Source: Anaerolineaceae bacterium | Lineage (GTDB): Bacteria; Chloroflexota; Anaerolineae; Anaerolineales; Anaerolineaceae | NCBI GenBank assembly: GCA_029975475.1 | Contig: JARKPB010000008.1 | Span: 248,001-312,000 of the forward strand | Length of the DNA stretch: 64,000 nucleotides | Reading direction: 5' to 3' | Part shown: positions 21,385-24,052 of the stretch, piece by piece | How the letters are laid out: each line of letters starts with the position of its first letter | Position numbering within the stretch: position 1 is the stretch's first letter | Position numbers and translations under genes: made by a program | Notes under the pieces: model-generated | What the model was told of the DNA's origin: nothing | What the model saw: the letters and a program-made list of their open reading frames with translations, nothing else | The model's database searches: none

Positions 21385-21675
21385 ATGAGCGACAGCGAAC
21401 CATTTGAAACGATTCCATGCAGCGAATGTCAGGCGGGTAAAATGCGCCGGCAGTATATCACGTATTTAACCTGGCTAGGCGATGAACTGGTCACCGTGCC
21501 GGATTTTCCCGCGTGGGTCTGCGATATATGCGGAAAACGCGAATACGACGGCTCAGCCCTTAACCGCCTGGCGCTCATCTTAAGCCCGAACGCCGGTAAG
21601 CCACCGACCAAATTTCGAAAAGCCCATCTCCGGCGCGAATCGCGCAAAGCCTCGCAGCCACCCCGTACCGAATAA
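21385..21675 (+). CDS. YgiT/MqsA-type zinc-finger protein
   Basis: 96 aa. Two CxxC pairs, CSEC near residue 12 and CDIC near 47, flanked by 'YLTWLGDELVTVPDFPAWVC', as in the zinc domain of YgiT/MqsA antitoxins. There is no HTH domain after it and no MqsR-like toxin beside it, so it is not evidence of a toxin-antitoxin pair. The C-terminus is basic. It lies 16 bp after lepB. Function unknown. Confidence 0.8.
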   Translation: MSDSEPFETIPCSECQAGKMRRQYITYLTWLGDELVTVPDFPAWVCDICGKREYDGSALNRLALILSPNAGKPPTKFRKAHLRRESRKASQPPRTE

Positions 21676-21697
21676 AAAAAGCCGTAAGGCTTTTTTA
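21674..21697. terminator. Bidirectional terminator
   Basis: AAAAAAAGCC-GTAA-GGCTTTTTTA: a short GC core extended by A/T tracts works in both directions, serving the zinc-finger gene and the convergent GNAT gene. Confidence 0.85.
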
Positions 21698-22222
21698 TTT
21701 TTCCTGCAGGAGCAGCGGTTGCAGATCTGGCCAGTAGAAACCTGTTTCGGGGTATTCTTCACTGCCAATCTCAACCGTTTTGGAATAAACCGGCTTACCG
21801 CCCATTCGGAGGTAAAAGTCGCAGGCGGGATTGGCTTGCAGCGCCCAGATCAACAGGCTGGTGCAGCCCCTTCGCGCCAGTTCGGCGGCTGCCCGGTAGA
21901 TTAGGCGGCGTCCGATACCGCGTTTTTGATAACCTGGTTCAACATACAATGCATAAATCTCACCGCAGTGAATTACTTCAGCGCTTCGCGCTGCGCCGCC
22001 CGCGCAGAATCCGCGGATTTTTTCGCCTTCCAGCGCGGTAAAGACAAATTCCTGCGGCTGCCGGTCCGCCAGCCGTTTTTGCCAGGCCGCCAGGCGGGCT
22101 TCAATGTTCAGTCCCTGTAAAAATGAGGCTGGTAGGATGTTTTGATACTGATTTTGCCCGGTTAATACGTGAATGCGCGCCAGCTCTGCTGCGTCTGCAT
22201 ATTCCGCCGGGCGGATCTGAAT
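21695..22222 (-). CDS. GNAT acetyltransferase lacking a canonical start codon
   Basis: Translating the minus strand gives a complete GNAT domain of about 175 residues: a beginning of the form IQIRPAEYADAAELARIHV, a middle GEIYALYVEPGYQKRGIGRRL (the acetyl-CoA loop), and 'ANPACDFYLRMGG'. No in-frame ATG or GTG occurs. The only TTG (21949) would discard the first half of the domain. ATT at 22222 fits the family N-terminus (IQIRPAE), but GGGAGG lies about 20 nt upstream of it. The frame is the same as that of the preceding TPR/WD40 gene, separated only by its TGA at 22250-22252. An ATT start, stop-codon readthrough, or a sequencing error are all possible. Substrate unknown. Confidence 0.7.
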   Translation of the reverse strand: MQIRPAEYADAAELARIHVLTGQNQYQNILPASFLQGLNIEARLAAWQKRLADRQPQEFVFTALEGEKIRGFCAGGAARSAEVIHCGEIYALYVEPGYQKRGIGRRLIYRAAAELARRGCTSLLIWALQANPACDFYLRMGGKPVYSKTVEIGSEEYPETGFYWPDLQPLLLQEK

Positions 22223-22249
22223 AGCCTGGGGCTGCGTTTTATCCTCCCG

Positions 22250-24052
22250 TCAGCGCAGTGCTGGAATCTGAATCCAGCGGATTTGTCCGGGAGCGTAGGA
22301 ATACAGGTAAGCTCCGTCAATTGAGAATTCCAGTTTCCCGGGTTCACCGCTCACCGGAAGGGTGGTGAGCAGGTTGCCATCAATGGCGTCGTAGATTTCA
22401 ATCACCGGTGTTTTCGTCAGGCTGGTTTTGCCAGCCAGAGCGGCGAGTTTGCCGTCTGGTGAAATGGCCATGCCGGTCAATTCGCCTATTTCGCTTTCCA
22501 GTTTGGTGATGCGCTGTCCGAAGGGCAGGTTGGTCAGCTCGGGCCAGGATTTTCCTTCCACGCCGTTTGATTCCAGCATGACGTAAAGATCAAAGGGGGC
22601 AAAAACAGCCAGAGGGCGGTTATCCTGCCGGGGATTGGCGCGCAGTGAAAACGGCGGTTGTTCTCCCTTAAGATCGAATACCTGTCCTGCCCCGTCTCCC
22701 GCGGCGATGAGCCAGTTTCCGCTTTCAGAAAGCTCAATCACGTTGAATGCGGTCGTCAATCCGCTGGCGATTAATTCGGGTTCGCCGGGCGGCAAGTCAT
22801 AACGCAGGATACGCGTTGTGAGGTCTTCCCAATTTTGCAGCGCCAGCAGCAGCCTGCCGTCTGGCAACATTAACATGCGCATGGCGGAACGGAGCGGATC
22901 GAGCGGATTATCCAGCCGGAAGACTTCCTGGTTGGTTTCTAACAGATAAAAGCGGATCGATTCATCGCCAATTTGAACAGCCAGATAGCGGTTATCGGCG
23001 GTGAAGCGAACATCTTTAATATCTTTTTCAAAACGAAAGATGACGGGCTGTTTCTGGGCTTTGATGTCCCAGAGAAATACCGTTCGATCTTGATTGCGGG
23101 TCGCTGCCAGACGGCTGTCGGGAGAAATCGCCACCTGATCAACCTGGCTGACTTCGCGCCGCAGGACGCTGAACGTCCGTCCGCTTTCCAGGTCAATCAT
23201 TGTGACCTGGCTGCCCTGAGGTACAGCCAGCAGAAAATGCTGCGGGGAAAGGATCATCGGTCCGCTGACCTTTTCCAGCACCTGTGTGCGGGCGATGACT
23301 GCCCCGGCCGCGTTATCCGGCGACAGGCGAACGCTGCCGGGTCGGGGAGTTGGCACAGGCAGGGTTGGTTCCGGGTTCTCGACGGGAAAAGTCGGCGTAA
23401 AGGTTGGCGCCGGGGTCGGCAGTTCCAGCGTAGGGCCCGGTGTGGCGGTGATGACGCGCAGCGTGGCGGTTGGAGCTGGCTGGCGCAGCGAAGCCAGCGA
23501 ATGAATCAGCGCTTCCCGGTAGCGCCAGCCGAAAAATGCCAGCCCGCCGATCAGGAGAATCAGCAGGACGGCACCAGCCGGTGAGCGGCGTTTTCGGCGG
23601 GGAGGCGGCTTCAGCGGGGGAGTTCGGCTGGCAGCCGGCAGGTGAACGGGTTTGATCAGTTCTTCCAGGTCCGGTTCGTAAGGGGGGATGACCGGTTGGG
23701 GGATCTGGAATTCAACCGCGGGCGCCGCTGCGCTTTCGGATATGCTTTCCGTGATGTTTTCATCTGGCGGCTTTTGAGGTGCTTCAGACGGTTGATTCAT
23801 CTGCGGCATGCGCTGCCCGAGGATCATTTCAAGGCCGCGTTTTGCCAGGGCGCTGTCTGGATTAAAGCGCAAACACATTTCCAGAGCGGCCACCCGCTGG
23901 GTGTCATCGGGCAGGGTCTCGACCAGCCACAACCAGGATTTTTCATTGGTTGGTTCTTCTGCTACCAGCCGCTGCAGCAGCTCGCGCGCCTCTTCGCGTT
24001 TGCCAGCCCGAACTAATCCGATCGCCCGATTGAGTTGATCCGAACGAACCAT
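22250..24052 (-). CDS. TPR-like / WD40 beta-propeller membrane protein
   Basis: 600 aa. Residues 1-80 are TPR-like helices (LVRAGKREEARELLQRLVAE). A basic stretch and one transmembrane helix (about 155-175) follow, then a Thr/Pro linker and an extracytoplasmic C-terminal beta-propeller. Repeated blades are visible: QVAISPDSRLAATRN, DVRFTADNRYLAVQ, 'GMAISPDGKLAALAGKT', LEFSIDGAYLYSY. Likely a scaffold or sensor at the membrane; no enzyme motif. A TACAAT element lies exactly 6 nt before the ATG with no ribosome site, so the mRNA may be leaderless. The GNAT frame follows directly after the stop. Confidence 0.82.
   Translation of the reverse strand: MVRSDQLNRAIGLVRAGKREEARELLQRLVAEEPTNEKSWLWLVETLPDDTQRVAALEMCLRFNPDSALAKRGLEMILGQRMPQMNQPSEAPQKPPDENITESISESAAAPAVEFQIPQPVIPPYEPDLEELIKPVHLPAASRTPPLKPPPRRKRRSPAGAVLLILLIGGLAFFGWRYREALIHSLASLRQPAPTATLRVITATPGPTLELPTPAPTFTPTFPVENPEPTLPVPTPRPGSVRLSPDNAAGAVIARTQVLEKVSGPMILSPQHFLLAVPQGSQVTMIDLESGRTFSVLRREVSQVDQVAISPDSRLAATRNQDRTVFLWDIKAQKQPVIFRFEKDIKDVRFTADNRYLAVQIGDESIRFYLLETNQEVFRLDNPLDPLRSAMRMLMLPDGRLLLALQNWEDLTTRILRYDLPPGEPELIASGLTTAFNVIELSESGNWLIAAGDGAGQVFDLKGEQPPFSLRANPRQDNRPLAVFAPFDLYVMLESNGVEGKSWPELTNLPFGQRITKLESEIGELTGMAISPDGKLAALAGKTSLTKTPVIEIYDAIDGNLLTTLPVSGEPGKLEFSIDGAYLYSYAPGQIRWIQIPALR

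Follow-up and report, generated by a model that had tools for sequence, protein, structure and literature searches.

A GNAT acetyltransferase gene with ACG at its probable start position in an Anaerolineaceae genome, and a candidate CUG start codon in rsfS

The bacterial gene infC begins with an AUU codon, which is conserved and belongs to the autoregulation of its product, IF3. Like infC and other bacterial non-AUG starts, the gene reported here has a near-cognate codon at its probable start position, but it differs from infC in that this codon is ACG and its product has no role as a translation factor, and nearly all the homologues compared, none of them a close orthologue, carry a canonical codon near the expected start. 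The closest solved structure to its product is 1wk4/2cy2 (ttk003001606, a probable acetyltransferase; E 2.5e-20), with similarity over nearly the whole length, and the gene differs from this protein and from the GNAT family (PF00583) in that a canonical start codon is missing. A reconstruction of 61,358 ancestral AUG starts describes switches to GUG, UUG, CUG (two) and AUU (one) and does not mention ACG (PMC5622118), and the output from CUG in E. coli is about 0.9% of that from AUG (PMC11497404). A literature search found no paper documenting bacterial ACG starts.

The gene is located in a window of 64,000 nucleotides, the whole stretch of DNA that was analysed, from an Anaerolineaceae bacterium. 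It lies directly downstream of a longer gene on the same strand:

21695–22237, minus strand: GNAT acetyltransferase gene, from the probable start ACG 22237 to TAA (Pfam, alignment and structure match)
22250–24052, minus strand: gene for a protein of 600 aa with TPR and a WD40-like beta-propeller (domain search; homologues of similar length without GNAT)
22250–22252, minus strand: TGA stop of the TPR/WD40 gene (sequence)
21675–21696, minus strand: terminator-like palindromic hairpin that overlaps the stop of the GNAT gene, listed on the plus strand only and folded on the minus strand

Read on the minus strand from 22249, the GNAT frame stays open to a TAA at 21697–21695, with no internal stop or frameshift, and its coding score, based on codon usage, is positive and gene-like. 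The product matches Pfam Acetyltransf_1 (PF00583) with an E value of 4e-15 and 56.5 bits against a gathering cut-off of 20.7, and the full GNAT domain recognized in the first-pass annotation is thereby confirmed. All 22 invariant columns of a seven-sequence alignment are retained, and the acetyl-CoA loop Q/R-x-x-G-x-G/A is present as YQKRGIGRRL, both glycines of which are invariant in the alignment. No NCBIfam equivalog matched the protein at its cut-off, and a single-sequence AlphaFold model was unusably poor (mean pLDDT 36.9). The frame was at first described as having no ATG or GTG and only one TTG, in the middle of the domain. The first 100 codons do lack ATG, GTG and TTG, but the frame contains TTG 21949, which is codon 101 past the TGA and the first canonical codon, as well as TTG 21853 and ATG 21805, all three deep in the domain. 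The three canonical codons together account for 5.9% of the codons within genes, and the chance of 100 codons without any of them is about 0.002. The unusual feature is that the start position itself lacks such a codon, a defect seen, rsfS apart, in 1 of 1,041 gene-like stretches. Judged by its sequence, the gene at 21695–22237 is an ordinary and intact member of the GNAT acetyltransferase family, and the retained residues and the open frame are compatible alike with an error in the assembly, with a start lost only very recently or with use at a low level.

Past the TGA the minus strand reads C-GGGAGG-ATAAA-ACG-CAG, and the elements that bear on the start are:

22243–22247, minus strand: Shine-Dalgarno sequence GGAGG, at the modal spacing of 5 to ACG
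22235–22237, minus strand: ACG in the place of the start codon, differing from ATG by one base, five bases after GGAGG
22220–22222, minus strand: ATT, the start suggested in the first-pass annotation, at the commonest homologue start position and with no Shine-Dalgarno sequence

The spacing statistics come from a 464 kb sample of this genome, in which 404 genes were called from their codon usage, and in the 186 with a strong Shine-Dalgarno sequence the two commonest values are 5 (48 genes) and 6 (47 genes); the GGAGG is thus placed at the genome's modal spacing from ACG 22237. ATT 22222, located 15 bases further downstream, has no Shine-Dalgarno sequence upstream of it at any usable spacing, and a ribosome-binding site at working distance, which serves as the test for an infC-like start, is found 5 nt before ACG and is absent for ATT. 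The GNAT homologues compared are from the same family and order and mostly show 26–42% identity, with no close orthologue among them. Nearly all carry ATG, GTG or TTG near the expected start, and relative to a conserved IR motif they mostly begin at -2 or -3, with a range from -1 to about -8; ATT 22222 is at -2 and ACG 22237 at -7, inside the range. The homologue position favours ATT 22222 and the ribosome-binding site favours ACG 22237. We put more weight on the ribosome-binding site, since start positions vary in the family and initiation without a Shine-Dalgarno sequence is unlikely beside a good one, and this ranking is a judgement, not a measurement. ACG 22237, the best start candidate, had been overlooked; in general terms the suggestion of a rare start or a base error stands, with the ACG as its site in place of the TGA or the ATT, and ATT 22222 does fit the family start by position but not by its ribosome-binding context.

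Folding of 22190–22290 (minus strand; -36 kcal/mol, z -2.7) predicts a hairpin in which the GGAGG is paired with AUCCGCCCG, within the early GNAT codons. Ribosomes arriving at the TGA would open this hairpin, which would fit translational coupling.

A scan for missing starts covered 1.2 Mb of contig C18 of the same genome, with 1,041 gene-like stretches, and in only two of these does the first canonical start come late, after much coding sequence, namely in the GNAT gene of the window and in rsfS. The gene prfB, a known programmed-frameshift gene, was also listed lower down, and its recovery shows that the scan works. Lost starts elsewhere may be hidden, since the scan depends on there being no canonical codon soon after. 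ATG is enriched at spacings of 4–8 after the 649 GGAGG sites in the 464 kb sample; at spacing 5 there are 33 cases where 9.1 are expected. ACG shows no enrichment at that spacing (7 against 6.7 expected), indicating that ACG is not a general start in this genome. Such a general role for ACG was rejected on this result and on the lack of a second case in the 1,041 stretches.

Two histidine-kinase genes of the genome each contain a single in-frame TAG. One is inside the GAF domain with the context VLNK*QGEFN (L065, around 14304; C18, around 526304, minus strand), and the other is in the N box of HATPase_c with the context DNAI*FSPEGG (L137, around 19849; C18, around 1371849, plus strand). Both are apparent single-base lesions, and the genes may be pseudogenes, assembly errors or something else; they indicate that this assembly does contain isolated lesions of one base, whether genuine or introduced by assembly. 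Close relatives were sought in public genome contigs and none was found.

The reading we prefer, with a probability of about 0.72, is that ACG 22237 is a lost ATG in an intact GNAT gene, either by an assembly error or minor variant or by recent start loss. The GNAT gene would come second in a unit of two genes, sharing a transcript with the TPR/WD40 gene and ending at the terminator-like hairpin. From the normal GGAGG we infer that the start codon belongs at 22237, where an ancestral ATG would be shown as ACG in the assembly. The single isolated T-to-C change could be a consensus or assembly error or a minor variant, or it could be a real and recent loss of the start, and either route may apply. 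Should the change be real, only weak synthesis of the protein would be expected, with fMet-tRNA initiating on ACG, and the strong Shine-Dalgarno sequence together with ribosomes that terminate at the TGA some 13 bases before the ACG would aid this initiation. A gene that closes a unit would be expected to have such a hairpin over its stop; the one here is common to the GNAT gene and the convergent gene at 21385–21675, although shuffled sequence contains hairpins of this kind no less often than the region does.

Several observations argue for the loss of an ATG at 22237. The Shine-Dalgarno sequence stands at modal spacing before ACG, whereas ATT has none, and the defect is the sole one of its kind in the 1,041 stretches besides rsfS with its conserved CTG. 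The frame and the GNAT residues are intact with a positive coding score, position -7 is inside the homologue range, and the two histidine-kinase TAGs provide further apparent single-base lesions in the same assembly. Against it, most homologue starts are at -2 or -3, where ATT 22222 sits, and not at -7, and the Shine-Dalgarno sequence is partly paired in the predicted hairpin, which may mean nothing.

A genuine functional ACG start, weak or selected for low expression and compensated by the strong Shine-Dalgarno sequence and by coupling to the TGA, is unlikely, although the ideal spacing, the TGA about 13 bases upstream and the intact protein all agree with it, and the lineage appears to have one conserved non-canonical start in the CTG of rsfS. 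It is opposed by the absence of ACG enrichment behind GGAGG and by the published reconstruction, in which no switch to ACG is mentioned; in view of the published switch counts and the weak output from CUG, a functional ACG is less likely than an error or a start loss. Translation from ATT 22222 in the manner of infC is distinctly improbable: the codon aligns with residue 1 of 1wk4 and lies at -2 to the IR motif, the commonest homologue start position, but it has no usable Shine-Dalgarno sequence, the good one pointing instead to ACG, and no ATT start was found among the 1,041 gene-like stretches.

The first-pass annotation also proposed that the TGA is read through, or that a base error created it from a sense codon, to give a TPR-WD40-GNAT protein. 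The TPR/WD40 gene (24052–22250) and the GNAT frame are indeed in register with the single TGA at 22252–22250 as the sole break between them, but two neighbouring frames are in register by chance in one case out of three. A look at related genomes for a sense codon or an ATG had been advised. In the loci of 11 TPR/WD40 homologues no GNAT is fused or nearby, and the two longest TPR/WD40 homologue alignments fall in open reading frames 602 and 627 aa long. The GNAT homologues possess their own starts, a separate Shine-Dalgarno sequence follows directly after the TGA, and the DNA sampled from the genome yielded no suppressor tRNA. With fused homologues absent among those examined, readthrough and the fusion protein were rejected as hardly credible.

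The loci of 38 GNAT homologues contain a TPR part in one only (L025, G045:C19), where a weakly matching GNAT homologue is divergent beside a TPR protein resembling the N-terminus of the window TPR/WD40 protein.

The second gene picked out by the scan is located outside the window, and its product, RsfS, is a factor that blocks subunit joining:

C18:981262–981609, minus strand: rsfS, ribosome silencing factor (L095; Pfam RsfS, E 7.5e-31)

The start context of this gene is GAGGTGA-AAC-CTG-AAC, and the TGA within the Shine-Dalgarno sequence is in frame one codon upstream of the CTG, so translation must begin past this TGA. In 30 aligned sequences from the same family and order, the own gene included (L095–L124), the first codon is CTG in 25. 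A second set consisted of 80 named genome records, mostly Anaerolineae (L142–L221), and here 58 have CTG without a nearby canonical alternative, 10 have both, 11 have a canonical codon only and one has neither; records with CTG include Longilinea arvoryzae KOME-1 (L168) and Leptolinea sp. HRD-7 (L202). Taken together CTG is conserved at the rsfS start in 86 of the 110 sequences, most of them from Anaerolineae and some shared between the two sets, and the upstream GAGGTGA is conserved across Anaerolineae as well. CTG accounts for 89% of the leucine codons at the first position in the 110 sequences, compared with 14–46% at other leucine columns. Such a bias would be expected of a codon that serves for initiation and is not decoded as leucine. 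From this pattern of conservation the CTG looks like a conserved CUG start codon, and a literature search found no paper on a CUG start of rsfS.

Other Chloroflexota classes (L222–L251) are not uniform in this respect. Outside the order, several rsfS genes have no nearby ATG, GTG or TTG, and show CTG or ATC after an AGG-rich stretch (for example L239, L240, L246 and L247).

By itself the GNAT case is minor, an example of how a gene of this sort can be lost to start-codon rules, and its value is that it prompted the contig-wide missing-start control by which rsfS was picked out. The CUG start of rsfS is the more interesting of the two and a result worth pursuing. By analogy with infC, we hypothesize that this weak start might be autoregulatory, and the conserved CTG makes it testable whether the ribosome-silencing factor is restrained by a weak start codon.
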